Positions 1 to 64,000 of a DNA stretch of 64,000 nt are shown piece after piece. Position 1 is the stretch's first letter; each line of letters opens with the position of its first letter. Origin of the DNA: Leptasterias polaris (lineage: Eukaryota; Echinodermata; Asteroidea; Forcipulatida; Asteriidae); contig JAZGTN010000162.1 of the NCBI GenBank assembly GCA_037783415.1, positions 2,852,001 through 2,916,000 on the forward strand, given 5' to 3'. The notes under the pieces are model-generated. The model saw only the letters and a program-made list of their open reading frames with translations, was not told the origin of the DNA and ran no database searches. Made by a program: the position numbers and the translations under genes.

Positions 1-24
1 GTAATCCATCAGCTGCTAGCATTG

Positions 25-370
25 GTAATGTGATCAGACTGGATAGCCTAACCTTCATGTGGTGTCCGATTACAAACCAGTGACTCTATTGATCAGATCA
101 AAACATCTTGAGAGGAGTCTACTACAGCGATTGAAGAAGAACTTGGAATTTATCTACCAGTACATGAGTAATGTAACAAGACTTGATAGTTGGTGACTAA
201 TCAAATCAAAACAGCTTGAGAAGAGTCTACCCTGTTTATAGATAAACTCTTGAGTGTGGGTGTGCATCTGTACATCCACCAGTACTTGAGAAATATGATG
301 AAACTTGATTGCTTGGTCAGTCAATGACTTATCCTATCCAAACAGCCTAAGAAAAGTCTGCCCAAAATAT
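25..370. repeat. Degenerate tandem repeat, about three units
   Basis: Three diverged units of about 100 bp follow one another. Each contains a variant of 'aagacttgatag', then 'aatcaaatcaaaacagcttg', and ends near 'gagaagagtctac' (around 115, 225 and 355). The units differ by many substitutions and short indels, so the array is old. No reading frame is maintained across units. Confidence 0.6.
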
Positions 371-974
371 TAAAGAGAGAGTGGACATTTTTTTGTCATT
401 ATTTGTTGGGCTAGTTCAAGAGACAGGCCTGTAACTCTGAAGCCACAAAGGTCATGCCCTCTATTGCCAGGTCTAAGGCCAACACCAATGGCCATGGCCC
501 CTGTTTCCTCCCTGTATCCTGGTCTTGGCCTTGGTGTCCGCCCTCTCAAAGATTAAAATGCAGGCCTGTAGAAAAGGTACACATTCAGGTCACTTGCTAA
601 GAGAAAGCACAACAAGATTTATGTCTGTAGCTTCATGAAGATAAAATGATATGGTGTGGAGTTTTCAGTTTCCCAGGTGATGCCCATCATCCAAATTGAA
701 GTGTCAAATACAAATGTGAAAACATTCAGAGCAAGATTGAATAGTTTTGTGCTATGCGGAGTGAAATTAAGCAGTACACAGCTAGTAATACACAGGTATG
801 GTGGACATCACTTCTTCCTTGGAATGTCAATCTGCTACATGTACTTGTTTTCCTTTCCTACATGTACATGTACATGTTGTACATGTACATGTACACCTAA
901 AGGACAGTACAAACACCACATGTTAAAGTTAAGAACAACCATTCAAACCCACGTCACATTTCCAGCCAAGCTTT
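371..974. other. Non-coding stretch with a TACATG microsatellite
   Basis: About 420-560 contains words such as 'caggcctgta' and 'aaggccaa' that recur near 25250, 33840 and 63270, so it is probably a decayed dispersed repeat. At about 859-893 there are two short (TACATG)n runs. The only ORF here (656-988) reads through the microsatellite and shows no recognisable domain, so I do not call a gene. Confidence 0.5.
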
Positions 975-1555
975 TAGCCAGGATTTGAAAATAGGGTGTC
1001 CAAATTTGACTGGATTGAAAAACAGGGCGTCCAAATTGTTGGGGTAAATTTTCAGCAAGCATGTACCACAGAACTATTATTGCATTTACTCTGTACTCCA
1101 CGTATGCTTTGGGTCTGGGCCGGTTAAAGGGTTTAAAAAAATGAAATCAGCACCGTACAGCCCTAAGAATCGTAGTATTTCGCGCAGTTTTATTATTATT
1201 TTTTAAGTTTGGGCGGGGTCACGACTTTTTCATATTGATTTCCCCCGTACAAGATCGAGTCGAGTTGCGGTATTCTACGGTATTCTACAAATAGCCCGCG
1301 AATTATATACGGAACAATGTTAACATTTCAACGTACATGTACATCATGTACATTTACAGTGTACCACCACTACGGACGAGGGATAGTTTGATAGTGAGGG
1401 AGGTGAGCATTTAAGAAGTACTGTCCTTCAATTTTATAGTGTGCAGTGAGCATTCTTTATTAAACCTGCATTACCAATACTCATGGTGGGAGGTTCACAC
1501 ATACAAACAGACACGCACGTTTTGACTCATACACTGCGCATGTGCGATGTTCTGC
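975..1555 (-). repeat. Uncharacterised 'GGGCGTCC' repeat, copy 1, left part
   Basis: Left part of a repeat whose second copy lies at 27505-29401 in the opposite orientation. It begins with TAGCCAG (975-981) and carries two units of a 'ggcgtccaaatttgactgga'-type tandem. It then matches the second copy through 'gaccccgcccaaac', 'tagtacgggggaaatc' and 'cgtgcgtgtctgc' on the other strand. A CR1-group LINE interrupts it at about 1556 and the match resumes at about 6014. No long ORF of its own is seen. The family is not one I recognise. Confidence 0.75.
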
Positions 1556-1830
1556 CTACATTAATATGATGACAGAAACATTTATTTCATACCGTCTCAA
1601 CAAATACAATACATTGTAGAAATCAAATAATTAATCAATATTTTTACATTATATGATTAAACTGAAAATTTAAATACATGAGACAATATGTAGGAATAAA
1701 GTGAAGTAAACAATATTACTTTTGTACTTTTCCCTATTTGACAGACAAAACAGACAAACACATACAGATAGGCTGACAGCCGAGACCAAACAAACATGAC
1801 CGAATAAAATATTATGAATCTACGATGACA

Positions 1831-4818
1831 TTACAAATATGTATCTAACAGGTAGTTTTTAAGTTTTCTAGAAAATGTATTAATTGAAGCAGGTTGCTTA
1901 AAATGTATATGAAGGCTATTCCAATATTCTGTTCCACGTTGTATAACACTGTTTTTGTGAATGGAAGTTCTGCTATAATTGACATAAAAATCCCCTTTCA
2001 ATGCTTTACGAGTGCCATAAGAATGTATTGATGAAGATAAAGTAAACATTTCATTAAAACTGTTTGGTAAGAGGCCGTATTTGTATTTGAACATGAATTT
2101 ACCCAAATTGAGACTATACAGATCATTAAACTTTAGCACTTTAAGTTTGGCAAATAAAGGAGCAGAATGAGATAGATAACTTGCTTTTGTGATAGTTCGA
2201 ACGGCTTTCTTTTGCAATAGAAAAAGTTTGTTACATTGTGCATTTCCGTGACCCCAAGATAGTATTGCGTAATTCAAATATGAAAGGATGAATGAATTGT
2301 ACAATGTTAAAAGAATTTTTTCTGACAGAAAACATTTTAATCTGTTCATAATACCAACCATTTTTGAGATTTTAGTGGATAAAACATCTATGTGTTTTTT
2401 CCAAGTTAAATTCTCATCAATATAAATACCTAAAAATGTTGAACTCCTTGTTTGGTTTAAAACACTGCCATTTAAGCAGAGAGGTACATTGCGCACATAT
2501 TTGTTTTGCCTAGCACAAAAAATTATATAATTTGTTTTAAGAACATTAATTGATAGTTTGTTTGCTAGAAGCCAGTTACTTATTTTAACAAGCTCTACGT
2601 TGAGGTTTTGTATAGCAATGTCAACATTTTGGTGATTATATAAAAGGCTTGTATCATCTGCAAACATACAAAAAGAGATCAGACTAGACGAATTACATAT
2701 ATCATTTATATAGATAATGAACAACAGAGGACCTAATACTGAACCTTGAGGAACTCCACAAGAAATATATTTATCGGATGAATGTCTAGAATTATGCGAG
2801 ACAAATTGCTTTCTATGTGTTAAATAGCTCTTAAACCATTCCAGGGCCAACCCACGAATACCAATTTTCTCTAACTTGGTAATAAGAATGTCATGGTTAA
2901 CAGTGTCGAATGCTTTGGACAGGTCAAGAAAAATACCAATTGAAAATTGTTTATTATCAATAGCGTTAATAATTTTATCTAACATACTTGTAATAGCTAG
3001 CTCAGTGGATCGTTGTGCTCTAAAGCCATATTGGGATTCTGTGAGCAGGCCATGCTTGTTAATAAAACAAATTAGTCGCTTGTATACCAATTTCTCAAAT
3101 ATTTTAGAAAATACAGAAAGTAGTGATATAGGTCTATAATTACCGAGGTCGTGTTTACAACCTTTTTTATATACAGGAACTACTTTAGCTATTTTTAGAC
3201 TGTCGGGAAAGACTCCAGTGGTGAATGACTTGTTAAAGAGCAGCATCAATGGCTTGGCCAAAGCATTCTTTGCTTCCTTTATGACAAATGAACCTATACC
3301 GTCACTACCTGGGGCTTTACCAGAGGGAAGTTTAGATATAACAATAGTAATTTCTGCTTCAGTGATTGGAGTCAGGTATAATGAATGAGGACATCTGTCT
3401 CCAAGAAAGGACTCAAAAGAACGTCCAGACGGTGTAAGTTCATCCGCTATACTATTGCCAATGTTCACAAAATAATTGTTAAAAGCATTTGCAATGTCTT
3501 CATCATCACAAATTCTCACATCATTATTAACAAAATACGATGAATTTTGAGTGGTCTTAGATTTACAAAGTAACGAGTTAATAAGTTTCCACGTTCCTTT
3601 AACATTGCCCTTCTCTTGATTAAACTTTTGACACAAATACTTTTGTTTTGCAGTTTTTATCAGACGTGTGAGGATGTTTCTGTACCGTGTATAGATACAT
3701 TTTTTATTAGGAGTCGGACTTTTGAGAAACTTTTTATACAGTGAATTTTTTCTTCTAATTGAGCTATAGATTCCTTCGGTTAACCACGGTGACTTGTTTT
3801 TATTTACACGGCTTTTAATTTTATGCAAGGGAAAGCACTTATCATAAAGTTTAAGAACTCGATTTAAGAATTGCTCATACACTCGATCCATGTTATCGAA
3901 CAGGTGTATGAAGTCCCAATTGGTATCACTGACTTCTTGAAGGAAGTGTTCGATATTTTGTTTACTATAATTACGCCTTTTGTTGTTGACATCTTTTAAG
4001 ATTTTAGCTTTACATTTATCAATAGCCATAAAAACAGGTAAATGATCACTTATATCAGTAAGTAAAATACCAGCACTATGGTTTGAAAAATCATTGGTGA
4101 AAATATTATCAATCAGTGTTGCACTGTCATCTGATATTCTTGTGGGTTTGTCAATGACAGGATAAAATGAAAAAGTGGAGAGCATGTCAATAAAATGCTG
4201 CACAGAATTGTCTACATTACAGTTCAATAAATTAATGTTAAAATCCCCCATAATATAGCATTTCTTCCCCTCATTATTTGCAAGTCTAAGAACGTCATTA
4301 CACACTTCTGTAAATTTATAACAAGAAACATCTGGTGGTTTATACATAACTCCGACAATAATATTTGCTGTAGTTGAGTTTTCAACTTCAATAAAGCACG
4401 ATTCAATTGACAGAGTATCAGTAGTACACAAATCATTTCTTAATGTATAATTATATTCTTCCTTGACGTACAAAGCCACTCCACCACCTCGTTTGTTCTG
4501 TCGGCAGAAACCTTCCATAGTATAACATGGAATTTTAATGAGCGGATCGCTTATATCTTTTAACCAGGTCTCGGTTATACCAATTATGGAAAATGAAACT
4601 CCAGTAAGTTCTACATATTGTTGTATATTAGAAATATTTTTTGTAAGGCTACGTGCATTTATGTGTAACAGTTTCATATCCGTATTAAATTTAAAATTAT
4701 CAAGAAACTGATCCTTGTCATAATAATTACAGGTGGTAGTATGAGAAATCAAATTGATGTCGGGATCTATGCTTGATTGAATATCAAATGAAATATCCCT
4801 GTCTCCCTCCGGTATCAT
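1831..4818 (-). CDS. LINE ORF2: APE-type endonuclease plus reverse transcriptase
   Basis: A 995-residue ORF2 protein that nicks the target and copies element RNA into DNA in the nucleus. The N-terminal endonuclease of the exonuclease-endonuclease-phosphatase fold shows LLHINARSL (50-58), GITETWL (80-86), GDFNINLL (191-198) and SDHLPVF (257-263), the last being the catalytic SDH motif. The reverse transcriptase shows NYRPISLL (560-567), LDLSKAFDTVNHDIL (631-645) with the first catalytic Asp, GVPQGSVLGPLLF (688-700) and FADDTSLLY (719-727) with the catalytic Asp pair. Motif style places it in the CR1/L2/Daphne group; the exact clade needs a tree. Length is normal for the group and no stop or frameshift is visible. 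The start is the first Met after a 180-bp gap from ORF1. Confidence 0.92.
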   Translation of the reverse strand: MIPEGDRDISFDIQSSIDPDINLISHTTTCNYYDKDQFLDNFKFNTDMKLLHINARSLTKNISNIQQYVELTGVSFSIIGITETWLKDISDPLIKIPCYTMEGFCRQNKRGGGVALYVKEEYNYTLRNDLCTTDTLSIESCFIEVENSTTANIIVGVMYKPPDVSCYKFTEVCNDVLRLANNEGKKCYIMGDFNINLLNCNVDNSVQHFIDMLSTFSFYPVIDKPTRISDDSATLIDNIFTNDFSNHSAGILLTDISDHLPVFMAIDKCKAKILKDVNNKRRNYSKQNIEHFLQEVSDTNWDFIHLFDNMDRVYEQFLNRVLKLYDKCFPLHKIKSRVNKNKSPWLTEGIYSSIRRKNSLYKKFLKSPTPNKKCIYTRYRNILTRLIKTAKQKYLCQKFNQEKGNVKGTWKLINSLLCKSKTTQNSSYFVNNDVRICDDEDIANAFNNYFVNIGNSIADELTPSGRSFESFLGDRCPHSLYLTPITEAEITIVISKLPSGKAPGSDGIGSFVIKEAKNALAKPLMLLFNKSFTTGVFPDSLKIAKVVPVYKKGCKHDLGNYRPISLLSVFSKIFEKLVYKRLICFINKHGLLTESQYGFRAQRSTELAITSMLDKIINAIDNKQFSIGIFLDLSKAFDTVNHDILITKLEKIGIRGLALEWFKSYLTHRKQFVSHNSRHSSDKYISCGVPQGSVLGPLLFIIYINDICNSSSLISFCMFADDTSLLYNHQNVDIAIQNLNVELVKISNWLLANKLSINVLKTNYIIFCARQNKYVRNVPLCLNGSVLNQTRSSTFLGIYIDENLTWKKHIDVLSTKISKMVGIMNRLKCFLSEKILLTLYNSFILSYLNYAILSWGHGNAQCNKLFLLQKKAVRTITKASYLSHSAPLFAKLKVLKFNDLYSLNLGKFMFKYKYGLLPNSFNEMFTLSSSIHSYGTRKALKGDFYVNYSRTSIHKNSVIQRGTEYWNSLHIHFKQPASINTFSRKLKNYLLDTYL

Positions 4819-4999
4819 GTAGGTATATAATATTAATCACGTAATTCATGTTAGATACACACACAAAAACAATCGTAAATTTGCTTGATCTCACAGCTGT
4901 CACACACAAACACAGACATAATATTAACACACATACTAACATAGCTGGGGCTGTATCTTGAGGATGGATTAGTTGCTACCTGACAAAAGATGTTATTCC

Positions 5000-6013: not shown

Positions 6014-6726
6014 CACTGAAAGGTTGCGGCAGCCAGAAAAGAGCGGGAATGACGTGCCTAGACTTGGTTCCAAGTCTGTGCTCGTGGTTTTTAGTCTACC
6101 TGCATTGCCTGCATGAAATAGCGCCCTCTTGTGGATTAACCTCCGTCTTTAACCTACGAGTTAGAGCGCGTGATAGCCAATCTGCGGGGGGATTTTGTGT
6201 GGCTGATGCAGAAAAATAACCCTTATCTCAGACTTGAAATCAAGTCTACAACACGTGTGTCTCGAGTGCTGCCGATCTATCACACAGGTACACGACATGT
6301 ACCTGTACATATACATACACAACGCTTTTTACGTCGACATACATGTACATGTACATGTACATGTATTTTGTAAACTTGTCTACTGCGTGGCGTTTCACCG
6401 CTATAGTTTCTAAAGCCTTTGCGGTTGTTCAAGCCTTCCCACTAGTCGGGGGCACTGTCTGATCCCTTTGTCGGTAAACAATGAATGGGCGATCAGTATA
6501 TTTAAGATAAATTGGTTGTATCTTGCATAAAATTACCTTCACTGCAGCTGGCAGGTAGTAATAGTTTTGGATTTGCGTTCGTTTTGCTTACAATTTCAGG
6601 TATTCGGATGTAATTTTTTTTATTATGTACAAAAAACAGGGCGTCTTCAAGGGCGTCCGACAGTTTTTCGGGGCGTCCAAAAATAAAATAGGGCGTCCAA
6701 AAGACGCCCCGACGTATCGCTGGCTA
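6014..6726 (-). repeat. Uncharacterised 'GGGCGTCC' repeat, copy 1, right part
   Basis: Continuation of the repeat interrupted at 1556. It matches the second copy (27505-28030, opposite strand) through 'cactgaaaggttgcggc', the 'tttacaaaa' segment, 'gaatgggcgatcagtata' and a terminal cluster of GGGCGTC words at 6640-6712. It ends in CTGGCTA (6720-6726), the inverse of the TAGCCAG at 975. Relative to copy 2 it carries four extra hexamers at 6340-6365 and lacks most of the segment equivalent to 28050-28690. Confidence 0.75.
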
Positions 6727-11643: not shown

Positions 11644-12177
11644 TGTGTAGGGGAAAAGCAAATCAAACGTGTAACCTTGTGCAAGCAGACTATAAGATGA
11701 GACTAGTGTGACCACAAAGAACATTTTGATGGTTTTGTATATATAAGCATCATATAGAGTGTTTTTAGAGGACAAGCACAACAAATATAGTAATACCGGA
11801 ACGCACTCACAGTGTTCAAAAGCTTTAGTTATAGTATTTATAAAATTCTTCCCTTGTTAATGGAGAATCAAGTAGGGAAATTAAACCTTTAAAGAACGTA
11901 CATGTATGAGGCGATATGTGGATAGTTCTTAATAGGGAAGGGGGGAGTTTTTGGTTAAGTGAAAAGGCAAAAATAGATGGGGAACAGGTGTTGGTGGGGG
12001 GTGGGGTTTAGAGAGGATGGAGGGTGTGAAAAGGAAACTGCCAAAAGACATTGAACCAAGATGTACCAAGGAGCGGGAAATTCGAAACTGAATCAGGTGC
12101 TAGAAAATAGATTGGCAGCGAGAGGGAGTGAAGGGAAAACTATGGTGGCCCTGAAGGGACATCGCATATCGCAAACG

Positions 12178-12400
12178 TGTGCGCATACGTATGCAATGTC
12201 GTGAAACAATTCGCGAATATGTGCGCACACGTATGCAATGTCGTGAAACAATTCGCGAATATGTGCGCACACGTACGCAATGTCGTGAAACAAATCGCGA
12301 ATGTGTGCGCACACGTATGCAATGTCGTGAAACAAATCGCGAATGTGTGCGCACACGGTATGCAATGTCGTGAAACAAATCGCGAATATGTGCGCACACG
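12178..12400. repeat. Left arm 42-bp tandem array (5 units)
   Basis: Each unit contains three near-palindromes: GCATACGTATGC, TGTGCGCACA and ATTCGCGAAT, linked by 'aatgtcgtgaaaca'. Unit-to-unit differences are single bases, plus one extra G near 12358. The right arm carries the same unit inverted. Confidence 0.85.
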
Positions 12401-12914
12401 TCTGCAAATATATTTGCAATGTCGTGAACGTTTATTGCATACCAAGTTGCATACCTTTGAATAAAATGTCTAATGATCTGGGGGGTTTCTTGCCCACAGT
12501 GAGATTAGCGGTAGTCATTGCAGCGGTAGTCATTGTTGTGAGGCAAGCGAGGCGGGTGGCGTATTTCTTTTTTTCCCACGACGAACGTGGGCTATTAACA
12601 TAAAATGGGCGTGTTTGACCGTAAAATACCCTCGCGCGTGCGTACTCTTCGACCTTGATTGTAATAGCACAAGTACAATTATTAGTAGGCTGCAGGTAGA
12701 TATAGCTTATGCTGTAGTACATGTTGGCGAAACTTGGCCTGGTGCCAAGTTCTTGGGTACACATTATTGTATAGCCATGCTTACAGGAGCCTGACTGTAG
12801 CGCCACGTACTCCCTAGGTCTCTAACAAATTGTCTGCAACTATGACATCATCCCAAAGGTATGCAACTTGGTATGCAATAAACGTTCACGACATTGCAAA
12901 TATATTCGCACTCG

Positions 12915-13190
12915 TGTGCGCACACATTCGCGAATTGTTCCACGACATTGCATACGTGTGCGCACATATTCGCGAATTGTTTCACGACATTGCATACGTG
13001 TGCGCACATATTCGCGATTTGTTTCACGACATTGCATACGTGTGCGCACATATTCGCGAATTGTTTCACGACATTGCATACGTGTGCGCACATATTCGCG
13101 ATTTGTTTCACGACATTGCATACGTGTGCGCACATATTCGCGAATTGTTTCACGACATTGCATACGTGTGCGCACACGTATGCGATATGC
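12915..13190. repeat. Right arm 42-bp tandem array (6 units)
   Basis: Inverted counterpart of the left arm. Units alternate between 'attcgcgaattgtttcacg' and 'attcgcgatttgtttcacg', which suggests that pairs of units were amplified together (an 84-bp higher-order step). Confidence 0.85.
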
Positions 13191-13213
13191 GATGTCCCTT
13201 CAGGGCCACCATA

Positions 13214-14054
13214 GAAAACACATGTTGTCTGTGTGGTCTCTGGTAGTAAATCATCCCTGACTGTCTAAATGTTGTTTTTGGGTGGGAGACAAGTGTCTCT
13301 GTATTCAGATACTCAGGCAATGGTTACAACAGAGCTAATGTTGATGTTTTTATGAAACTTCATGAAGGATTGAGGGGGAGTGGGTTTTGGAAAAGGGGGG
13401 GGTTTGGTTTTCAGGGGAAGGGGTTGTTGGAACTCACCTAAAAAGAACGTTTTCCGGTGATAATATGTTGAGCCACTTTTTTTTTTATACCTTTAATGGG
13501 ATGGCTCAAAACATATTTTCAGTGCGTTATATAAGCTGCACCTCATCAGTCACCATTCTGGCTTATGTATCCTTTATTATGAAAGATTTGCAACAATGAG
13601 TGATCAAAATATGGCTTGTTAGAGTAGAAGGATCCAGCGAGATTAGTGTTTTTCGTTTGTTTTTAGTTTAACGTAGTCTCGTCTGGATCCAAACCCTGTT
13701 GTTTCTTTAATTTATTGTACCAAGCTGTTGTTCTTGGAGTAATTCAACCAGGATTTGCAAGTTCTGTTAGTCCATTTCTTTGAGTACGTTTTCTTCGGTT
13801 GAATCTTGCAATCTAGTCCGAATTATTTGGAATTTTATGTTCTTTTGTCTTTTGTAGGCCAACAGAGGTGGTACAGGGAAGAGTTTGTTAAAGTCACCTG
13901 GAAATAGAATTTATTTTTTTTTTAAATATAAGAGTACATGTATATGTATATATATTAACAATAAAACAATTTTTTGAGTAATTGTTTGTCAGTATTTATA
14001 TGTTAAAAAAATAGATAAAGTTGTTTGGGGGCGACTCCGCCCATCCCTTTTTGT
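13214..14054. other. Part of nested insertion, nothing coding seen
   Basis: G-rich stretch at 13373-13430, A/T-rich microsatellite-like sequence at 13915-13960, and no ORF with a recognisable domain. Origin unclear. Confidence 0.4.
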
Positions 14055-17586: not shown

Positions 17587-17616
17587 TCAAAATCTCTTTT
17601 TTGAAATATATGTATG

Positions 17617-17640: not shown

Positions 17641-17662
17641 TTTGTTTGGCATAGCCAAGTTC

Positions 17663-20040: not shown

Positions 20041-20837
20041 TATTTTTTGTTTTCCTTTTTTGACCTCCATGTCACACTTAAGATTCCATGATCTCACAAT
20101 GACCCTAATATGTCCTTGAGGACCAGACTGGGCCCATTTGATGGCACTGTTTTCCACAGGTTTTGTGCACAAAGTGGTGCCCAGTAAAGCTAGTTTTTCT
20201 ACTCATGTACTGGCCATATTGTAAGTACCGAGCTCAGTGAGAAGAAGTGCAATGAGTTTAGGCCCTCATAATTTTTAACAATATCCACCCTGACATCCTG
20301 CATGTTTGGGGTGTGCAGATTTTGGAATAAAGCGGGGCTTAATTGATTCATCTACATTGTATTGCTGTCATCTTTGAGAACAATTTTTGCTGGATATTGA
20401 TGTTGATCGTTGTTCTGTAGACTTTTATCCTTCACTAAATTTGTCAGTATTAATCAGGGTTAGGCGGATCCAGGAATTTTAGAGCCAGCTTGATTGATGT
20501 GATAAAGCATCTTAAAATTATTTTAGAATTTGTCGGATAATGCAGCAATTTTGCCTGACAGCAGTTTTACAAACTTGTATGAAATACATGAGTCCCAATT
20601 GTTTACTGATGTCGAAGCTTCCTGTACAACAATACAAGTGTAAAAGTCGTTTGTAAAAAAAAAACAATAGGCCTAAAACAATACTGGTTTGCTTCGAGAA
20701 AAAGTGCTGTAACCACTTGTAATTTAACAATGAACCCCTGCACAACATGTTGACTCAGTGTTAGAACAATAAATGTCCTGGCACTTAAAAAAATATACAC
20801 AGACCTATAAGATATGACTGTCATAATACATACACAA
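20041..20837. other. Intergenic stretch, nothing recognised
   Basis: A/T-rich sequence with no domain-bearing frame on either strand. Confidence 0.45.
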
Positions 20838-27504: not shown

Positions 27505-29401
27505 TAGCCAGCAATGCGTCCGGGCGTCTTTTGGACGCCCTATTTTATTTTTGGACGCCCCGAAAAACTGTCGGACGCCCTTGAAGACGCCCTGTTTTTT
27601 GTACATAAAAAATATATTGCATCCGAATACCTGAAATTGTAAGCAAAACGAACGCAAATTCAAAATTTTTACTATATGCCAGCTGCAGTGAAGGTAACTT
27701 TATGCAAGATACAACCAATTTATCTTATACTGATCGCCCATTCATTGTTTACCGACAAAGGGATCAAATTTAACATCAGACACTCGAGCGGGAAGGCTTG
27801 AACCGCAAAGGCTTTAGAAACTAGCGGTGAAACGCCACGCTAGAAAAGTTTACAAAATATGTCATCGTAAAAAGCGTTGTGTATGTACTGTACATGTACA
27901 TACATGTACATGTACATGTACATGTACATGTATGTACATGTACATGTACATGTACATGTACCTACTGGGGTTGTGTGATAGATCGGCAGCGCTCGAGACA
28001 CATGTGTTGTTTACCACGAGTTCCGTTATTACTCTGCAGTTGCTATGATGGGTGGGATGGGGCTTAACCCTTTAGCACTCACACAATATTAAACATAGCG
28101 CCATTCACTCCTCACTACAGATAACTTCGGTACCTCAAACCCTTTGAAAAAATCATATCAAATCACGATATTCTGTGTGTAAAAACACCAATAAGTTTAT
28201 CGTGAAAGAAGCGGAAGTTCGCCATTACTGTGTACATTGCGCGTGTGATCAAGGTACCTACATGTATGATACGGTCCGCACTACACAGAGAAAAACAGCT
28301 ACTTGTTGCACTTCACTTGCATTGGTGATAGGACTTCCGACCTTTGAACCTTTGGAGGTGGACATCGTGATTTTTTCTTATGGGCACCATGTGTTATTTT
28401 TAGAATATTATTGTCTGTGTTGAGATAGCGCTCTATCTATGACCGTTTGCAGCATTTTAACCGCATGAACTAAAAACACAACTTGTCAAACTTCGAAGTC
28501 GTTTGCGGGCGGTATGCGGAGTAATACGCAGGGCGGATGCGGGCGGTATGCGTGGATCGGTCAATGTTGTAAACTTCTCAAAACTTATTTATAAATAAAA
28601 GTATTAACTGTCAAGGTTCAAAGTAAAAACAGTTGATAACAATGTGTTGGAAGAGTTTAAAAACAGCTCCATTCATTAATTCCATCAGGCAATAAACTGC
28701 GCACCGCTTCCGGGCACGTCATTCCTGCTATTTTCTGGCCGCCGCAACCTTTCAGTGCATATGCAGAACATCGCACATGCGAGTATGAGTCAAAACGTGC
28801 GTGTCTGCTTGTATGTGTGAACTTCCCACAATGAGTATGGGTAATGCAAGTTTAATAAAGAAAACTCCCTGCAATTCACAACATCAAATTACATGCACTT
28901 CTTACATGCTCACTATAAAACTATCCTTCGTAGTACACTGTACATACTATATTTACATTGAAATGTAAACTGTTCCATTCGTATAATTCGCAGGCTATGT
29001 GTAGTATACCGCAACTTTAGTACGGGGGAAATCAATATGAAAAAGTTGTGACCCCGCCCAAACTTTAATAATAATAACATAAAATGAAACCGCGCTAAAT
29101 ACTACGATTCTTAAGGGCTGTATGGTGCTGATTTCATTTTGTTTAACCCTTTAGCCGGCCCAGACCCAAAGCATACATGTACGTGAATACACAGTAAATG
29201 CAATAATAGTTCTGTGGTACCAGCTAGCTGAATATTTATCCCAAAAATTTGGACGCCCTGTTTTTCAATCCAGTCAAATTTGGACACCCTATTTTTCAAT
29301 CCAGTCAAATTTGGACACCCTGTTTTTCAATCCAGTCAAATTTGGACGCCCTGTTTTTCAATCCAGTCAAATTTGGACACCCTATTTTCAAATCCTGGCT
29401 A
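27505..29401 (+). repeat. Uncharacterised 'GGGCGTCC' repeat, copy 2 (1.9 kb)
   Basis: Complete copy bounded by TAGCCAG (27505) and CTGGCTA (29395-29401). GGACGCCC-type words are clustered at both ends: 27530-27595 and a 31-bp tandem at 29248-29395. It lies inside intron 1 of the WH1 gene. A long TACATG microsatellite sits at 27885-27962. At about 28756 it preserves the site that the CR1-group LINE occupies in copy 1. There is no convincing ORF, so it is a non-autonomous element or a satellite-like repeat of unknown class. Confidence 0.7.
29248..29395. repeat. 31-bp tandem repeat
   Basis: Four to five units of 'tttggac(a/g)ccct(g/a)tttttcaatccagtcaaa'-type sequence, with period 31 counted between successive 'tggac' words at 29281 and 29312. 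Copy 1 of the host repeat has only about two units (980-1040). Confidence 0.8.
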
Positions 29402-31775: not shown

Positions 31776-32000
31776 ACATAGTGTTTATGGACAACACAGA
31801 AAGCAATACGAAGACATGAATTATGTGCCTTGGTTGGGGTGTATTTTCATGTTTACGCATTGCGCACTTCACATAACACACAACGCATGATGGACACATG
31901 GATTTCCAGCCTTATGGAAATTCAACACTTTTCAACAACTATAATTTATTATTAAATCTTTTTGCTGAAGTATTCTGAAATTGTTTTCAATTACTAAATA

Positions 32001-32854
32001 CAGTCGTTTGACCAGTTCCGGATCACTTAAACTTTGCAACAACTACATAATTAAAATACTTCTCACATTACCAATTTCTGTTGATACATGTGAAGAATAA
32101 CATCCAATAAACCAACAAACCCAAAATAAGGTGCCAAACATCATCGACAAATAAATTATGGCAATTTTTCTGAAGTTTGTCGGCATAATGATCATTATTT
32201 ACAAAAAAAATGATGGTTGAAAAACGCTGTTAAAACTTCTCACCTTTCAAATTTGAACGCCAGGGCGAATAAAATTTATGTAAAATGGTAAAAATGTGTA
32301 AAAAATATTTCACGTAAATACTGAGCAGGTGTCTTGTTTTTTTGATGAGATAAATTTACCGAAATCGTTTGTTTTGAGGCATCGTACCCTTGCCCAGTTC
32401 CGGATCACTCAATATGTTGGTGCGTCAAATGGTGGCGCACTCAGTTAGGTAAAATCATACGGCTGTTGTAGACAGTTTAGTTATTTAGTTGCACTGGAAG
32501 CGTGCATTTTTATATTTCAAGCAATGTAAAACTACATGTACTTCATCCAACAGCCGTCGATAACGTTGCATGTATTTTCAGTTTCATGAATGGGGATTAG
32601 GAGTATTGGTTTGCAATAGAGGGCGCGCTACTGATTCGGAACAGAATCAACCGATCCGGAACTGGTCAAACGGGTGACGATACTTTTCTCGAAGCCACTT
32701 CAAAAGTATTACTTATTTTTTGCCAATGGATACTTGGTGAGTGTAATGACATGTGTAGGTAAACTGATCGACTTTTGTCTGCTTGAAATGTTAAAGAGAT
32801 TGCAACAAAAACAACATGAATTCAAAAAGTGATCCGGAACTGGTCAAACGACTG
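32001..32854. mobile_element. Tc1/mariner-type non-autonomous DNA transposon
   Basis: Perfect 28-bp terminal inverted repeats begin CAGTCGTTTGACC at 32001 and end in the inverse at 32854. They are flanked by TA on both sides (31999-32000 and 32855-32856). A TA target duplication and CAGT ends are typical of the Tc1/mariner/pogo superfamily. Partial internal copies of the repeat occur at about 32392-32409 and, inverted, at about 32653-32672, possibly extra transposase-binding sites. There is no transposase ORF, so movement would depend on an enzyme made elsewhere. Confidence 0.8.
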
Positions 32855-33017
32855 TACAATTTGAGCAAAAAATGCTTTAAATAACTTAATGAGGAGCATC
32901 ATATGATTTGCAAAATAAAAGAGTCAGTTAATAAGATGACTATAATTGGGTTCCACACTATTCATTAACCTGTCGTTGATTTATAACTTTGTAATTTATA
33001 CGGTCTTTTTAAACGTC

Positions 33018-34427: not shown

Positions 34428-35645
34428 AAGGTCACAGCAAGTGAAAGGTTCCAACCAGTACTTTTTCAGATGCTGTCAGATACATTAAATGCTCAAGGAA
34501 ATTTTGCCCCTATACATTAGTTCAGTGACGCTGTCTTGTTTCTCTTTCACACAAACCAATGGGACCAAACTGAGGCTGGAAGGAAAATGGTCTGTCTGTC
34601 CCGTCCGGTCTGTCTGTCCGTCTGTTTTTTTCCTATTTTGCCAGTATGTAATTAGATTTGTAATTTACTGTGATTTACGGCATTCCCGCTACAAGCACCT
34701 GCTTCTAGGGTATTATTGCCGCCATCCCATTATTCTCTTTTATTAATAATGTTAAATATAACAAGTACTCCTTCAGCCTTACAATATTGTATTTACTATT
34801 CTTGTGAACTTGTATTCAGTTGAAATGGAATGGAAATAAACGTAAACGTAACCCTTTAGTGGAATGAGAATTATAACTATTCTTCCCATTTGGTATTCAG
34901 GGAACCTGACACAGAATGCAGCAGAGTGATAAAGGCCTGTTGTCACCCAATTCACAGTTTTTTTGAGTTTGTGAGGGCGTGTGAGAACCAAATAAACATG
35001 ATGCAAAACGAGTCAGACAAATTAATTTTTCCTATTGTTGTTATTATATCTATAGGCCTATTTGGCCATTGATACAAGAAAACAATTTGCAGTCAAAATA
35101 AGACAAAACTGTAATTATGATCATCAAAGTTAGCCATTGAAAACGCCCTCATTCGATCTAAAGTAAATGTATCTACATGTACACTCATGTAAAGTGTTCA
35201 CTTCAACTATGCTGTCTCAAATACTATCCACTTGAAGGAACTCCAAATACTCATTGGACAGCGGGGAGGGTGAAGTAAAATGGAACAATCCCGCCATTGA
35301 ATGTTTTTGTAATATCTGAATGCAAAAATAAATGTACTGTCCAAAATAAGGAAGCGGACCTACATCTATTAGTTTTGTGTGGTCTTACCATTCAATGCAT
35401 AGTCCAAAATGTGCATCACTCTTTGCACAACACAGGACTTGATCTGGCACCTGAGGCACTTGGCACTTTACTACATGTAGTTGAGTAGTTAAAGTATCTA
35501 CAAACTGTACAATGAGGTCCTAGGTTTGAGTCTCACCCTTCGTTTGATCTCAGACACACCCAAGTATTCAGCGCCCTGTATTCTAATACATTGTTTTAAG
35601 AGCTGAATAACAATTAGTCATGATGTTCTCTCATTCATCTTACAG
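34428..35645. other. Intron 1, last part
   Basis: No domain-bearing ORF. It ends in 'attcatcttacag', the acceptor of exon 2. Confidence 0.5.
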
Positions 35646-38006: not shown

Positions 38007-38808
38007 TGTCACATGTACGGCATTTTAAAGAGAAGAGGCTGGAAGACTCTTGTTGTGTTCATGAATTCACCCCATTTTATTTTGCACACCGCAGGAAATG
38101 GTTAAAGCTGACGCGGGTGAAAACTAAAGATAACAAATACATAAATACAACGTTAAACAACACATACAATAAGTACACAATAATAAATCACTTTAGAAGA
38201 AAAAATGGAACGAGTGCGTAATACATGTAGCAATAAAATGAAATAGCATCAAATATCAAGCGAGATGCATCGATCTACCAAGCAATTTACTGAAACCTAA
38301 TAGAGCGAGACCCAAACATAAAGTACTCCAGAATATACCCAATACTTTAACCTCAACAACAAAATTAACTTAGCACAAACAAAAACTTACAATCGTTTCC
38401 GGGGGAACTCACGATTCCGGCCATACACATGGGAATCAATAAATGAAGATCGGCGGTTTACTGCGGCATTCTGGGGTAGGGAGTTGACTACAAAAACTTA
38501 CAGGAACAGAACCAAAAAATAACTCGAACTGAACTGAACGGAAGCTAGAACATAAAATGACTCGAACTGAACTGAACGGAAGCTAGAACATAAATGACTC
38601 GAACTGCTCCCGCAAACGGTTTTGCTAAGCAGCCAGCGCCCACTACGAATAGCATACGATGCATACCGGGCATTCCAAATGTGCTTAGATACAAAGTAAA
38701 TACCGGAAATGCCATGATTACAATAAAGAAAGGGGGAGGGCGGGCAGGAAATACTAGGAGAACCAAAAAAAATATTTGTTACAAAAATGCTTATCAATGG
38801 AGATAACA
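38007..38808 (-). repeat. BEL/Pao 3' LTR
   Basis: Begins TGTCACATG and ends GATAACA on the plus strand. It contains a short direct duplication of 'actcgaactgaactgaacgg' (38522 and 38562). It carries TACATGTA at 38222-38229 where the other LTR has TA. Confidence 0.93.
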
Positions 38809-44544: not shown

Positions 44545-45340
44545 TGTCACATGTACGGCATTTTAAAGAGAAGAGGCTGGAAGACTCTTGTTGTGTTCAT
44601 GAATTCACCCCATTTTATTTTGCACACCGCAGGAAATGGTTAAAGCTGACGCGGGTGAAAACTAAAGATAACAAATACATAAATACAACGTTAAACAACA
44701 CATACAATAAGTACACAATAATAAATCACTTTAGAAGAAAAAATGGAACGAGTGCGTAATAGCAATAAAATGAAATAGCATCAAATATCAAGCGAGATGC
44801 ATCGATCTACCAAGCAATTTACTGAAACCTAATAGAGCGAGACCCAAACATAAAGTACTCCAGAATATACCCAATACTTTAACCTCAACAACAAAATTAA
44901 CTTAGCACAAACAAAAACTTACAATCGTTTCCGGGGGAACTCACGATTCCGGCCATACACATGGGAATCAATAAATGAAGATCGGCGGTTTACTGCGGCA
45001 TTCTGGGGTAGGGAGTTGACTACAAAAACTTACAGGAACAGAACCAAAAAATAACTCGAACTGAACTGAACGGAAGCTAGAACATAAAATGACTCGAACT
45101 GAACTGAACGGAAGCTAGAACATAAATGACTCGAACTGCTCCCGCAAACGGTTTTGCTAAGCAGCCAGCGCCCACTACGAATAGCATACGATGCATACCG
45201 GGCATTCCAAATGTGCTTAGATACAAAGTAAATACCGGAAATGCCATGATTACAATAAAGAAAGGGGGAGGGCGGGCAGGAAATACTAGGAGAACCAAAA
45301 AAAATATTTGTTACAAAAATGCTTATCAATGGAGATAACA
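44545..45340 (-). repeat. BEL/Pao 5' LTR
   Basis: Matches 38007-38808 without visible change apart from lacking six bases at 44760-44761. The leader to the first ATG is about 170 bp. Confidence 0.93.
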
Positions 45341-49880: not shown

Positions 49881-51689
49881 TTAACAATCACCATGATTAT
49901 TTAACTTTGTCCCTATAGGCCTACATGTATGTAAGTCTAAATTTCTCCAGTTGTTGTACTGTTGCTCTGGCATGCAGCTTTGTAAGCTTATGTAAGAAAT
50001 GAAAACCACTGCAACAAAGCACTCACCTGTCATTTTCAACTGAAATCGATCAGTGGTGATGAAAACTATATCTAAACAGGAACTTTGTACGTACTTTGGT
50101 TTCATGGAATTGGGGCTTTCCCTTGACTTTTTACCCTTACACATTGTACATGTACTGTATGTACTTCCCTCTATGACCCATAAATAATATTGTGTTTTTT
50201 TCCTTTTTCTTTTTCTCTTGAATTGAATTGAAATCAGTTTGGTTCCATTTATTTACAAAAAGTTCTCTTTGACATATAAAAAACCTGAATGTGAAACATT
50301 ATACCAAGTAATTGTGAACATACAATAGAAAAACAAAGTAGCTACTACTTGAACATGAAAGCTGGAGTTGAACAAAACTGAAATATTACACAATTCAAAA
50401 AATACTGAATAATCATGGAGAAGAATGGAAAAAACACGATGTTGTATAATTTGAATTGAAGTGATCCGGTTTCATCTTCGCATAATACTTTGTTTTTTGT
50501 GTACTTCTCAACAAACCTGACTTCTATCGCAATAAATTGTTTAAGACTTGGTTTGAATCAACCAGAATGTTTGGTGGTCTCATCTGACTGGAATCTTTAA
50601 TCTTCGCCGACATTACCTGTACAGTAAAAAATCCAAAGCACGTACAAGTAGGTTGCTCACCAAAACCCTAAGGCTTGACTTTTAAGTGGTGATCATTGCA
50701 AAATTAATTGAAATTTTTAAGTCTTAATGCTTTTGTCTTAATCTTGATCCTAGAATAAGACATAAGAAGACATACATGTAAGAAACATTAATAATCTCCA
50801 AAGAGAAATACTGTAGAAAATGCATTTCCTGAGTATATTAAATGTCCTGAGTATCTTTCTGCTGAAATACTTCAATGTGTAGAACAATTTTCCGCTAAAA
50901 TTCAATTTTTGTTTCCTTCATGCACAAAAACACCCATTAAAAAAACCCCAGAAAGCTGTTCTTTTTAGTGTTCTCAAAAACACGACCACAAACAATTTAT
51001 AACAATGCCGACAGGTTTGTTATAATTTGTCATTGTAGAAATGTTGTGAAATGGATAGTTTTTGAAAAGCCTGTCAGACTGTGATTGAAATAATTTGATT
51101 TCATTAGGGTGGTGTAATAGTTAATATTAATATCTGAAGGGTCAGTATGGGTCATTAGTGGTGCTCTTACAACTGACAGTTTGAGTTTCAGAGAAAGATG
51201 GTCGCAGCAGATGCACATAGTAAACGGGAAATGGAAGGTCATGCCGGTTCCAGTCTTTTGGCAAACCCATCGGAAATAGTGTCGTCAAACCCAAACTGCA
51301 TCCCACGTACATGGAAAGACCAAGGACGTTGTGTAGTCCTAACCACTCTGGTGTCAAATACTTAGTACTGGTGGTGAGTGTGGACATGTTTGAAGTTGCT
51401 GGTGTTTCTGGTTTTGGGAGTTTTGTTTCGGAGTCTGGACATTTCTGTGTTGTGTGGTGCAACTTGCTGAAGAGTCAAAAGGTTCTTTCCTGCATAGTCG
51501 GATAGTCTACAATATTGTTTGTCTTTTGGATTACTTTATATTCCACGTAAATTCGGACACGAAGTGGTGATTTCTTTTTCTACATGGTGAGTGCTTTCTG
51601 GTTTTAAAGGACTGTGTTATTTTCAAAAGAAAAATTATATTTAAATAGATGCAAAAATTGCATCCAAATAAAGAAATTTTACTAGATTG
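49881..51689. other. Intron 3 sequence, no exon seen
   Basis: A/T-rich; short frames carry no motifs. TACATGTA-type words occur at 49920, 50145 and 50770. Confidence 0.4.
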
Positions 51690-52929: not shown

Positions 52930-53540
52930 TTTCCTTCATGTGACATGCAATTTTGGCTGGTAACCTTATTCTTGTAAGCATGAATTTGTTGTGCTTAGCT
53001 ACTTCTTGTGCTATACATGTATACTGTGCTTAGACAATTCTTGCTAAGCAAAATGAGCAGGATACCAACAACATTGTTCTTTGTGATGTGGAATTTTTTC
53101 TGGTAAGCATAACTTTGTTGTTATTTAAGCTACTTCTTGTGCTGTATACTGTGCTTCAACAATTTCTGCTAAGCATAAGTACAAAGGAGCAGGATACCAG
53201 TTTGTGATGTGGAATTTTGTCTGATCACCTTATTCTGGTAAGATTTAACTTTTTGTGATTAGTTACTTCATGGAGGAAGGAAATATACTTCTTGTCCTGC
53301 ATGTTGTGCTTAAATAATTTCTGCTAAGCAAAAATGAGCAGGATACCAACAACATGTGATATGAATTTTGGATTGCTGTTAAGCATAACTTTGTTGTGCT
53401 TAGCTACTTCCTGTGCCGTATACTGCTCTTGTACAGTTTCTGCAAAGCATATGCAAAAATGAGCAGGATACCAATCACATTGTACTTGTTGTGATGAAAG
53501 TTTGGCTGGTAATGTTATTTTGGAAAGCAGCTCTTTTTGT
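52930..53540. repeat. Diverged tandem units of the 'ttgctaagca' MITE family
   Basis: About five units of 110-130 bp, each with 'gctacttc(t/c)tgtgc', 'gtatactg', 'tttctgctaagca' and 'gagcaggatacca'. The first unit has TACATGTA at 53014-53021 where units two and four have TA (53145 and 53419). Confidence 0.65.
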
Positions 53541-55582: not shown

Positions 55583-56122
55583 ACATTTCTATACTCAGTT
55601 CTGGTCCTTGCTCTATGGTTTTACCCATACATGTACAAGTGTACATTTCTATACTCAGTTCTGGTCCTTGCTCTATGGTTTTACCCATACATGTACAAGT
55701 GTACATTTCTATACTCAGTTCTGGTCCTTGCTCTATGGTTTTACCCATACATGTACAAGTGTACATTTCTATACTCAGTTCTGGTCCTTGCTCTATGGTT
55801 TTACCCATACATGTACAAGTGTACATTTCTATACTCAGTTCTGGTCCTTGCTCTATGGTTTTACCCATACATGTACAAGTGTACATTTCTATACTCAGTT
55901 CTGGTCCTTGCTCTATGGTTTTACCCATACATGTACAAGTGTACATTTCTATACTCAGTTCTGGTCCTTGCTCTATGGTTTTACCCATACATGTACAAGT
56001 GTACATTTCTATACTCAGTTCTGGTCCTTGCTCTATGGTTTTACCCATACATGTACAAGTGTACATTTCTATACTCAGTTCTGGTCCTTGCTCTATGGTT
56101 TTACCCATACATGTACAAGTGT
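55583..56122. repeat. 60-bp x9 minisatellite, units essentially identical
   Basis: Exactly 540 bp of nine repeats of a 60-bp unit starting 'acatttctatactcagttct' and containing 'catacatgtacaagtgt'. No unit difference is visible. Since 60 is divisible by three, open frames of about 200 residues appear on both strands; they are artefacts unless expression is shown. Confidence 0.95.
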
Positions 56123-56265
56123 ACAGCTTCAAAATTCAGAGCAAGTTTGCACTATTTTGATTTCAGCTTCAAAGTGAATTAGCAACGTGATGACAGTAGC
56201 ATGGCACATTGGCTGACAATCTGTTTCTGCTAGACTCTTCTCTGCTAAGCAACCTTGTTCATATA

Positions 56266-58969: not shown

Positions 58970-59263
58970 AAAGCTGATAGCATTAGGCCACACATAGTTA
59001 GGGTCATGACTTGTTATAAAGCTGATAGCATTAGGCCACACATAGTTAGGGTCATGACTTGTTATAAAGCTGATAGCATTAGGCCACACATAGTTAGGGT
59101 CATGACTTGTTATAAAGCTGATAGCATTAGGCCACACATAGTTAGGGTCATGACTTGTTATAAAGCTGATAGCATTAGGCCACACATAGTTAGGGTCATG
59201 ACTTGTTATAAAGCTGATAGCATTAGGCCACACATACATGTAGTTAGGGTCATGACTTGTTAT
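58970..59263. repeat. 48-bp x6 minisatellite, last unit with TACATGTA
   Basis: Six units starting 'aaagctgatagcattaggcc', 294 bp in total: 6x48 plus six. The first five read 'cacacatagttag'. The last reads 'cacacatacatgtagttag' (TACATGTA at 59235-59242). The open frames on both strands are repeat artefacts. Confidence 0.92.
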
Positions 59264-60459: not shown

Positions 60460-61577
60460 TTTCTACTACTTCTCATCCTTACACTCTCGCTTTGCTGAGA
60501 TGTTTCTACTACTTCTCATCCTTACACTCTCGCTTTGCTGAGATGTTTCTACTACTTCTCATCCTTACACTCTCGCTTTGCTGAGATGTTTCTACTACTT
60601 CTCATCCTTGCACTCTCGCTTTGCTGAGATGTTTCTACTACTTCTCATCCTTACACTCTCGCTTTGCTGAGATGTTTCTACTACTTCTCATCCTTACACT
60701 CTCGCTTTGCTGAGATGTTTCTACTACTTCTCATCCTTACACTCTCGCTTTGCTGAGATGTTTCTACTACTTCTCATCCTTACACTCTCGCTTTGCTGAG
60801 ATGTTTCTACTACTTCTCATCCTTACACTCTCGCTTTGCTGAGATGTTTCTACTACTTCTCATCCTTACACTCTCGCTTTGCTGAGATGTTTCTACTACT
60901 TCTCATCCTTACACTCACGCTTTGCTGAGATGTTTCTACTACTTCTCATCCTTGCACTCTCGCTTTGCTGAGATGTTTCTACTACTTCTCATCCTTACAC
61001 TCTCGCTTTGCTGAGATGTTTCTACTACTTCTCATCCTTACACTCTCGCTTTGCTGATATGTTTCTACTACTTCTCATCCTTACACTCTCGCTTTGCTGA
61101 GATGTTTCTACTACTTCTCATCCTTACACTCTCGCTTTGCTGAGATGTTTCTACTACTTCTCATCCTTACACTCACGCTTTGCTGAGATGTTTCTACTAC
61201 TTCTCATCCTTACACTCTCGCTTTGCTGAGATGTTTCTACTACTTCTCATCCTTACACTCTCGCTTTGCTGAGATGTTTCTACTACTTCTCATCCTTACA
61301 CTCTCGCTTTGCTGAGATGTTTCTACTACTTCTCATCCTTACACTCTCGCTTTGCTGAGATGTTTCTACTACTTCTCATCCTTACACTCTTGCTTTGCTG
61401 AGATGTTTCTACTACTTCCCATCCTTACACTCTCGCTTTGCTGAGATGTTTCTACTACTTCTCATCCTTACACTCTCGCTTTGCTGAGATGTTTCTACTA
61501 CTTCTCATCCTTACACTCTCGCTTTGCTGAGATGTTTCTACTACTTCTCATCCTTACACTCTCGCTTTGCTGAGATG
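60460..61577. repeat. 43-bp x26 minisatellite
   Basis: Exactly 1118 bp = 26 x 43, unit starting 'tttctactacttctcatcct' and ending 'cgctttgctgagatg'. Only a few single-base variants occur (for example 60610, 60916, 60955, 61058, 61174, 61390, 61418) and no length change. Period 43 is not divisible by three, so no long ORF results. Confidence 0.95.
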
Positions 61578-61597
61578 TATGTAGAACAAAAAGCTGT

Positions 61598-61737: not shown

Positions 61738-62674
61738 AATTTGTAGCCCTTACCAAGAGTTGCTTTTAGCCTTGTTTGGGGCCAACTAGCATGGAAACAT
61801 TTTCTTTTAAAGAAAGTGTATGTAATGTGTACCTGTTTGTATGTAAATGTGTGTTGCCTGGGGTTGGGGGTTGGGGGGGGGGGGGGAGGGGGAGTCTGTT
61901 AGGGCAAGGATAATTGTCAATGATCATCTTTGAACTACAAAATGAATCACTGAATATACAACAATGTCCCACTTTAGTGAAAATACCAGACATGTTCCCA
62001 ATAGATCATTACCCTGCACGCTTGTAAATTCCTGGTTGTAGTTTAAGAAAAAACACACTTTTACAAACACGGAAATTGATTTAGCACATCAGTTCCTGGT
62101 TGGAAAAGTTGAAAAGCAAAACATCTGAAAGGGGATCAGTAATTACTGTCACACTCTTGATGAGCTACAATTAGATCAGTCTTCGTTGTTGGATTTTATC
62201 AGTGAAGACCAGGAGAGTTCAAGGAAGGCCAGCTGGTCTAACATTGGATCCCCCTGTTTATATTCCTGGGCATTTTATTCAACCAAAGAAACTTAAGATG
62301 GGAACGGTATTCTGAAAATGCCAGTACAGTCCTGTAAATGTCATATCTTTGTACAAGCTTATGGTATGACTGATGTTAAAGGGTGTGTAATGCCATTGGT
62401 GATTACGGTTCTTGTTTTCATTTATTTAATTTTGGGGTTTTTTGGGGGGGGGGGGGTGAACTTATCGTCTGAAAGTAACTTCATACTAAAGGTCACCTTT
62501 TGGCTTTTGAAGAGTTCATTCTAATCTTAGGTTACGACTCAATGGCTACATTTCCCAGGTCTTGGACTTAGGTTTTTGTTTTGTTTTATTTTTCTTTTCT
62601 TTTTTCCTGCACCTTGGAATATGTTTGATCATAGATAAATGAAGGTGGCGCTTTAAAAACGGTGTGTTATTATT
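61738..62674. other. Non-coding stretch
   Basis: Homopolymer G runs at about 61866-61890 and 62443-62457. No supported gene. Confidence 0.4.
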
Positions 62675-62830
62675 TGGCATGGTTGGCTAGGCATAAAGCA
62701 CTCACCTCTCCACTGTGGTCCTGGTTTGATTCCTGGTGAAGGCCATACATGTGAGTAGAGTTGTGCATTGGTTCTCTGCTATACCACAAAGGTTTTCTCC
62801 GGGCCCTCCGGAAAAAAATTGAGACACTTT
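62675..62830 (+). repeat. tRNA-derived SINE, third type
   Basis: 'atggttggctaggcataaag' (A-box-like) and 'ggtttgattcctgg' (B-box-like) are followed by 'gtgagtagagtt' and 'ggttttctccgggccctccg'. Confidence 0.5.
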
Positions 62831-63574
62831 TTATCTCTGGCTGTGCTCTGTGTTCATACTGTATATGGGTTGATGTGGCTGGCTGCCAAAGGTGCCCTTG
62901 CAAGCCTGTGGCTCAAACACGTTGTTGCCGTGTTTTTTGCAATTTAGCTTCTCAGCAAATGATTAATTAAGTAGACCACTGACCAGTGTCTAGCAGTTTT
63001 TAGCATTGGGCCAGTAACCCCACAACTCAGCAAGTCCCGCACTGTAATACTTTTTGTCACCCATACATACTTGTGAAGGTTTTCTAAGTGCATTCATTTA
63101 TAAGCTTATCAATTCTTTAAACATCCAGTTAGTATAAACTTGTCAAAAACTTTTCTTATAAAGTGAAAGTTCTGAGCTACATGTACAAACTACAAGAGCC
63201 CAATTTCATGGCTGTGCATACTGAATTCTGCGCTTACATCCCATATAATAATGTGCTGTACAGGGATCCAGGCCTGGAATTTCATCTTTGAGAGGGCAAG
63301 GCCATTTTCATTTTGCAAAGGGCACTTCCATTGGAAAATCTTAAGTTCTATGGGAAATGTTTGAAGGGGCATCAAGGCCAAGAACCCGGGCAACAGAGGC
63401 CATAGCCTTCATTGCCACTGGTCTGGGCTGGGCTTTGTAAGCACACAATTCTGCGGTAAGCAGAGTGATGAAATTGGACCCTGTAGTATACATGTAGTGG
63501 AGATTTCCTTAGAATTCTAGACCTGAGTATTCCAGATGTTTAGTCTCAGTTACACTGTGTTAAACTTCAAACCT
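62831..63574. repeat. Decayed dispersed repeats
   Basis: 63268-63370 matches 25255-25370 ('aatttcatctttgagagggc', 'gcacttccattggaaaatct'). 63195-63230 and 63440-63475 ('cacacaattctgcggtaagc', 'gatgaaattgg') look like ends of a MITE related to the one at 59400. Confidence 0.4.
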
Positions 63575-63763
63575 GGGCTCATTTTCTTAGAGCTGCTTAA
63601 GCACAAAAAGTAGCTCAGCACAACAAAATCATTCTTACCAGAATATGGTTACCAGCCAAAATACTATGTCAAATGTACAAGCTGTAACTGGTATCCTGTT
63701 GCCTTGTTATTGCTTAGCATAAAATGTTCAAGCATTGTTTTTGCAGCTTTATGAAATTGGGTC
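63575..63763. mobile_element. MITE, 'tagagctgcttaagca' family
   Basis: The left end 'tgggctcattttcttagagc' and right end 'gctttatgaaattgggtc' are imperfect inverses. The interior has 'atggttaccagccaaaatac' and 'gtaactggtatcctg', as in 47405-47602. Confidence 0.6.
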
Positions 63764-64000
63764 ATGACTTGTTAGTACTCCCAGCTCCATAGAGCAAGGC
63801 TCAATCCCTCCCTCACTCGCACAACTGTTACTTATCTGACTATCATGACTAACTAGGGAAGGAAAAATATAGCCTTGCACCTTGCTAAGCAAAAATAGGA
63901 CAACCAGCCAAAATGTTATGCGATACATAGTCATCACTGGTGTCCTGCATTGTATTTATACTTATTTAGCAAACTACATGTACTTTGCTTCGTGAAATCT

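Follow-up and report, generated by a model that had tools for sequence, protein, structure and literature searches.

What produces the palindrome TACATGTA in such numbers in one stretch of sea star DNA? The stretch (hereafter the window) comprises 64,000 bp of Leptasterias polaris (positions 2852001-2916000 of contig C162, in a genome of 629.7 Mb and 334 contigs). A sequence-only reading of it had counted more than forty TACATGTA loci where base composition predicted about two, and had proposed that Tc1/mariner elements spread the word by repeated insertion and excision. We hold with moderate confidence that TACATGTA represents genome-wide excision scars of TA-specific DDE transposons, probably left by brief events in which an element inserted and departed. 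The observations on which this is based are exact six-base gains at TA, their recurrence, symmetric flanks, enrichment outside the window, a second over-represented TA palindrome and transposase reading frames. Coordinates are those of the window unless a contig or locus is named, and strand is given where a feature has one.

Abundance of TACATGTA in the window and in the genome

The window (38.3% GC) contains 81 copies of TACATGTA, against 2.0 expected from base composition and 4.7 from an order-3 Markov model. When tandem arrays were masked, 51-53 copies remained, depending on the mask. In the masked window, 52 copies were counted against 1.6 in dinucleotide shuffles (200 shuffles, maximum 6), and TACATGTA was the most over-represented of all 8-mers by order-3 z-score; the next word of the form TA-N4-TA reached only 14 copies against 3.9 expected. 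Most of the non-array sites (47/53) are isolated single copies.

The masked arrays include short (TACATG)n arrays at 859..895 and 6340..6365, an (ATGTAC)n array at 27883..27961 with ten overlapping TACATGTA, and a 60-bp tandem array at 55583..56125 with one TACATGTA per unit (9 sites). In this last array the word was amplified passively and does not represent separate gains. It is plausible that TACATGTA gains seeded the TACATG microsatellites.

In order to establish whether the excess extended beyond the window, we examined a sample of 20 stretches of 10 kb (L150-L169), placed at round-number positions on other contigs. After masking (185 kb), 51 copies were found against 4.2 in 100 shuffles; in the unmasked sample there were 53 against 6.7 expected, and there the word fell outside the 25 top-scoring 8-mers, which were mainly repeat-family words and runs of G or C. 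Chance and base composition were thus ruled out as the source of the excess by composition, Markov and shuffle controls in both window and sample, and the initial count was borne out.

The word was clumped over the 20 loci (variance/mean 7.0), with 18 copies in L168, 10 in L154 and none in 5/20; the range of 0 to 18 per 10 kb occurred despite similar GC content. No reading frame longer than 145 aa was found in the hot loci L168 and L154. The window itself is a dense region for TACATGTA. Scaling 53 copies per 200 kb to the genome gives a total of about 170,000, or about 80,000 if L168 and L154, the densest loci, are disregarded; both figures extrapolate from only 20 samples of uneven density.

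Single gains of six bases at TA

The clearest case lies in a Bel/Pao element, whose two long terminal repeats (LTRs) are on the minus strand at 38007..38808 (802 bp) and 44545..45340 (796 bp). The boundaries of both were set by eye, the first reading TGT...ACA with a 5-bp flanking duplication ATCAT. The sole difference between the two LTRs is six bases: TACATGTA at 38222..38229 in the first corresponds to a plain TA at 44760..44761 in the second, and the two mismatches in the 809-column alignment fall beyond the LTR ends as read by eye. Genomic copies were then aligned with this pair (20 fetched of 53 matching places listed in the genome). As 21/22 rows read TA, including 20/20 fetched copies, TA is the ancestral state and the gain at 38222 is derived.

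Three further comparisons pointed out by the sequence-only reading were also upheld. At 59235..59242, one of the six units of a 48-bp array carries TACATGTA and the sister units read TA. The site at 29174..29181 has an inverted counterpart near 1103 (complement). Compared by eye, the two read AAAGCA-TACATG-TACGTG against AAAGCATACGTG, which is an exact gain with small changes nearby; the automated homologue comparison scored this pair as 'other', unlike the reading by eye. At 53014..53021, comparison by eye with the copies at 53145 and 53419, which read TA, revealed an exact +6 together with one or two substitutions. In addition, the homologue of 37684..37691 in L165 reads TA, with flanks 85% identical.

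Gains were also found outside the window. Eleven copies were aligned of a family that encodes a DDE_3 transposase between long inverted arms. Of these, the copy in L191 is alone in having acquired TACATGTA, and it did so twice. One of the two sites is a TA in nine copies and TATA in L197; the other is likewise a TA in nine copies and falls within a deletion in L203. The same TA was therefore altered in two copies, to TACATGTA in L191 (1306) and to TATA in L197.

Every TACATGTA and every other TA-N4-TA word, in the window and in the fetched loci, was compared with its BLAST homologues. For TACATGTA, 168 sites were queried, 70 had a homologue and 11/70 showed a clean TA form. For the control words, the corresponding figures were 1944, 427 and 10/427 (Fisher 2e-5, families uncollapsed). 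Among the ten control forms, W_38228 is the 38222 event again and two rows stand for one event. By flank identity, the eleven comprise four at 0.98 or above, three at 0.84-0.86 and four, which are doubtful, at 0.74-0.79. A collapsed Fisher test on 33 sites leaned on families grouped by eye, and the uncollapsed comparison of 11/70 with 10/427 is to be preferred. Redundancy among the 70 can only weaken the signal: 22 are copies of a single ancestral site in the TACAGTCG family, and units of tandem arrays recur as well. Substitution was the main kind of difference from homologues for the control words (804 pairs), as against 13 pairs for TACATGTA. Taken together, the aligned copies reveal six-base gains centred on TA with the TA duplicated: TACATGTA arises as an exact gain of CATGTA at TA.

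Target flanks and range of products

For the flanks of TACATGTA, both sides were merged and all TAs of the window served as background. A is favoured at position -3 (34/72 in the strict window set; 60/126 outside, p 4e-4; background 32%) and T is depleted at -1 (8/72 and 21/126, p 3e-5; background 34%). Position -2 is inconsistent, C being favoured in the window set and T in the outside set. Sleeping Beauty prefers targets of the form ANNTANNT. Tc1/mariner elements characteristically insert with a preference that is symmetric about the target, as an excerpt of PMC5801840 documents for Sleeping Beauty, and the flanks of TACATGTA are symmetric in this way.

A Tc1/mariner footprint is also expected to leave mixed repair products. 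We equate the +4 scar, in our own reading, with TACATA/TATGTA, and the +5 words are TACAGTA/TACTGTA. In 282 kb of masked sequence, under an order-2 Markov model, TACATGTA was found 113 times against 8.7. The other products matched expectation: TACATA 109 against 110 and TATGTA 112 against 112.5 (ratio 1.0), TACAGTA 24 against 23.5 and TACTGTA 24 against 24.7. Compared with shuffles, the +4 words numbered 65 against 40 in the window and 133 against 114 (maximum 140) in the sample. The +5 words occur 5 and 10 times in the window, with 14 against 8.5 shuffled after masking, and 31 times against 21.6 (maximum 33) in the sample. Mixed +4 and +5 products were thus not clearly enriched in the 282 kb or in the sample, and showed a weak excess in the window. 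Scars of the Sleeping Beauty type, TACAGTA/TACTGTA, which the sequence-only reading had listed, are present, but their excess was unconvincing in all three sets and they were dropped.

Some other words are more frequent than expected in the sample, namely TACANTGTA, with a one-base filler (17 against 4.3), and TAGGNCCTA (9 against 1.3). Furthermore, L192 and L193, which are 99% identical apart from gaps, differ by a change from TA to TACAATGTA. It is possible that the TACAATGTA gain, the TATA at the TA of the L191 gain, TAGGNCCTA and TACANTGTA are imprecise scars.

A second palindrome and a partly matching transposase family

When all 256 palindromic 8-mers were ranked, TACATGTA came first (112 against 8.7) and TAGGCCTA second (27 against 1.7). 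Both share the form TA-xy-x'y'-TA. Next came ATGTACAT (47 against 10.4), a word that tandem TACATGTA contains, followed in fourth place by TGACGTCA (17 against 2.6). Examples of TAGGCCTA are found at 20668..20675 and 35053..35060, and at 49916..49929 the sequence TAGGCCTACATGTA contains both palindromes with one common TA. The flanks of the TAGGCCTA sites appear unrelated by eye, and their distribution is unlike that of TACATGTA.

An excision footprint calls for a transposase. The genome gave 71 matches to PF13358, many with an open frame and no stop, and these DDE_3 frames are predicted to encode active-looking transposases of the Tc1/mariner superfamily. One DDE_3 family, with an open frame of 376-380 aa, has eight genome matches of near-equal score. 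Two of its members, L204 (G000:C16:248300-250700, from 290) and L205, share 99.7% identity over 2127 bp, and both begin with TA|TAGGTTTTCCCGG; judged from their sequences, this family has apparently been active recently. All eight left ends examined read TATAGGTTTT and lie in TATA, which leaves it ambiguous whether the element starts with TAGG or with GG; on the right, the one end that was read gave AAAACCTA|TA. The family ends are TAGGTTTT...AAAACCTA, and their tips placed head to head spell TAGGCCTA, which is suggestive of a link between TAGGCCTA and this TAGG...CCTA transposase family.

Search for the source of TACATGTA

The window and the loci fetched by then were scanned for inverted repeats flanked by TA, with 18-bp ends, at most 2 mismatches and a spacing of 60-3500 bp. 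The window contains a TA-inserted element with terminal inverted repeats at 31999..32856 (TACAGTCGTTTGACC...), with perfect 30-bp ends, CA...TG tips and an ancestral TACATGTA at 32533. It starts CAGTCG, and a cut two bases from each end would yield TACATGTA. Forty near-full-length copies of its family were scored of 824 first-look candidates.

This family, referred to as the TACAGTCG family, was rejected as the source of TACATGTA, since its target flanks differ. Its insertion sites directly adjoin CATGTA in 2/18 cases against 0.14 expected (p 0.009), and no match to its ends was found in the viral collection. In L129 (474-1014), an inverted pair flanked by TA, with perfect 18-bp ends and CA tips (TACAAACTCGCCCCCTCA), may be a further CA...TG element. 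Within the inverted-repeat scan and the one CA...TG family, no element was found whose ends and target preference both match TACATGTA.

Other features of the window

A long interspersed nuclear element (LINE) with reverse transcriptase and endonuclease occupies 1831-4836. A frame at 14800-16746, for which Pfam gave a sub-threshold RVT_1 match only, is Penelope-like in our reading. The Bel/Pao element carries Pfam domains Peptidase_A17, DUF5641 and an integrase zinc domain. By its transposons, the window looks animal-type. The LINE protein has no relative in the viral collection; the prokaryotic collection gave a single distant relative (24% identical). One weak match was obtained in phage records. 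A scan for viral patterns marked at least 120 stretches, the densest of which, L017, was judged phage-like by eye.

A histone 3' untranslated region stem-loop (Rfam RF00032) lies at 17594-17639 on the minus strand, with a score above gathering. A dispersed family resembling short interspersed elements or miniature inverted-repeat transposable elements (e.g. CTGGGCCCCTTTTCATAGAGCTGCTTAAGCA) is present in several copies, at 20836-21244, 47402-47599, 52937-53512 and 63573-63761. A 43-bp tandem repeat at 60460-61578 comprises 26 copies with 98% matches between copies. At 12140-13214, an inverted pair of 42-bp tandem arrays (TGTGCGCACACG...) lies within a TA-flanked inverted repeat whose ends (TATGGTGGCCCTGAAGGG) recur in L158.

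Discussion

The following route would account for the two palindromes. A DDE transposase of Tc1/mariner type, specific for TA, would join an element with CA...TG tips to such a site, duplicating the TA. The element would then be excised by cuts placed two bases in from either end, and host end joining would retain the two bases left on each side, so that TA-CA-TG-TA results. TAGGCCTA would come about by the same route from a second family, with GG...CC beside TA. The uniform +6 would require either that both two-base remnants are regularly kept, for example by fill-in across the break, or that cutting produces a self-complementary CATG overhang. There are far more scars than CA-tipped elements found, which makes it likely that insertion was abortive or that the elements resided only briefly at each site.

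In favour of the spread by insertion and excision first proposed are the exact TA gains, the flanks, the resident TA-inserted elements and DDE_3 frames and the partial agreement of TAGGCCTA with the transposon tips; neither a clear excess of +4 and +5 products nor a matching source element was seen in the sequences compared.

Caenorhabditis elegans is not known to have X-family polymerases, and this could explain why +4 scars dominate there. C. elegans Tc1 likewise inserts at TA and leaves its CA/TG terminal bases between duplicated TAs, with TACATGTA reported as one product, as the initial reading had stated. However, the relevant part of PMC3520976, citing Eide and Anderson 1988, gives TACATGTA as a rare Tc1 footprint, and an excerpt of PMC13148408 gives the +4 scar as the typical somatic one (78%), whereas here +6 is the sole strongly enriched product. 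Moreover, that somatic assay differs from the present case, in which an assembled genome shows enrichment well past one locus. The footprints C(A/T)GTA of Sleeping Beauty and Frog Prince (excerpt of PMC3878927) are also Tc1/mariner scars at TA, but the +5 words are without clear enrichment here. In the part of PMC10629817 that was matched, TACATGTA occurs solely in repair oligonucleotides. Among the literature matches listed, whose scope mostly excludes subscription papers, no title pointed to genome-wide TACATGTA scars or to TAGGCCTA footprints.

Several results weigh against excision as the origin of the words. Window and sample together hold 134 TACATGTA and one clear CA-tipped element. The inverted-repeat scan gave no TA-flanked inverted repeat beginning CATG outside TACATG-rich stretches. 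The insertion sites of the CA...TG family favour A at -2 (24/36) and G or C at -1 (27/36), unlike the TACATGTA sites. If overhangs of 2 or 3 bases were joined, +4 and +5 products should result, yet these are without clear excess. The one-base fillers could be slippage products instead of imprecise scars, and other TA-N4-TA words are mildly enriched (TAATAATA 73 against 18.2, TAGACCTA 16 against 3.9). For TAGGCCTA, 0/26 sites with enough flank had a homologue in the window and fetched loci, and 8/8 TAGG left ends sit in TATA as against TA on both sides, judged by eye, in 2/28 TAGGCCTA sites, which makes the match imperfect. Private gains were absent from the other 10 aligned DDE_3 copies and from the TACAGTCG family (877 bp), of which 21 rows were aligned, five of them repeats of another row, leaving 16 distinct copies; gains are thus rare outside hot regions. 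Finally, in the sequences compared, which are non-allelic, TA, TA-element-TA and TACATGTA were never all encountered at one and the same site.

The main rival is an unrecognised process other than excision, which would insert a palindromic CATG (or GGCC) and duplicate the TA without any element ever being resident. Examples would be templated repair at TA breaks, or a strand transfer that is aborted and whose products a nuclease then trims. The great uniformity of the +6 product, the shortage of CA-tipped elements relative to scars and the regional hot spots (variance/mean 7.0) would all fit such a process. However, transposon ends are suggested by the targeting of TA, by the symmetry of the flanks and by the TAGG tips found in a resident transposase family, and we regard this explanation as unlikely, though it is to be taken seriously.

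That TACATGTA is a selected regulatory site, bound by Irx, appears highly improbable. The word is uneven along the present genome and is highly abundant upstream of genes in other eukaryotes: in the pertinent part of PMC3520976, motif-1 of Phytophthora is the same palindrome, lies upstream of 12,070 genes and is a preferred site of Irx homeodomain factors. That source reads it as regulatory and explicitly as unexpected for a transposon footprint, whereas here single TA gains were observed directly. These private gains lie within an LTR and transposon arms, the flanks are unrelated, and the origin is by insertion, not substitution.

We give just as little credence to the idea that repeat families containing the word brought it in. 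The TACAGTCG family and the 60-bp array do contain TACATGTA, but only 2/53 non-array sites fall in the four transposon coding stretches, which make up 21% of the masked window, and the sequence around the remaining sites appears unrelated from one to another. Carriage was rejected for most window sites on these grounds. Slippage of a (TACATG)n microsatellite as the seed and spreader of TACATGTA, to which the arrays at 859, 6340 and 27883 might point, is the least credible of all and was rejected for the isolated sites. The polarised gains derive from a lone TA with no repeat to slip, and in the alignments made their sites show only TACATGTA, TATA and one deletion rather than a series of repeat lengths.

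Returning to excision scars, a bolder version can be put forward tentatively: in hot regions, TA-specific transposases may scar the genome at rates rivalling those of other small mutations, mostly by hit-and-run or abortive events, and some 100,000 palindromic 8-mers (TACATGTA and TAGGCCTA) may form a fossil record of vanished families.

If the excision reading is right, it would name a recurrent, sequence-specific insertion mutation, and it would offer a mutational account of TACATGTA in cases interpreted as regulatory, such as motif-1 of Phytophthora. Word counts, together with the indels between repeat copies, would then report on transposase activity, both former and current, in any genome, and this readout would extend to transposase families without surviving copies.

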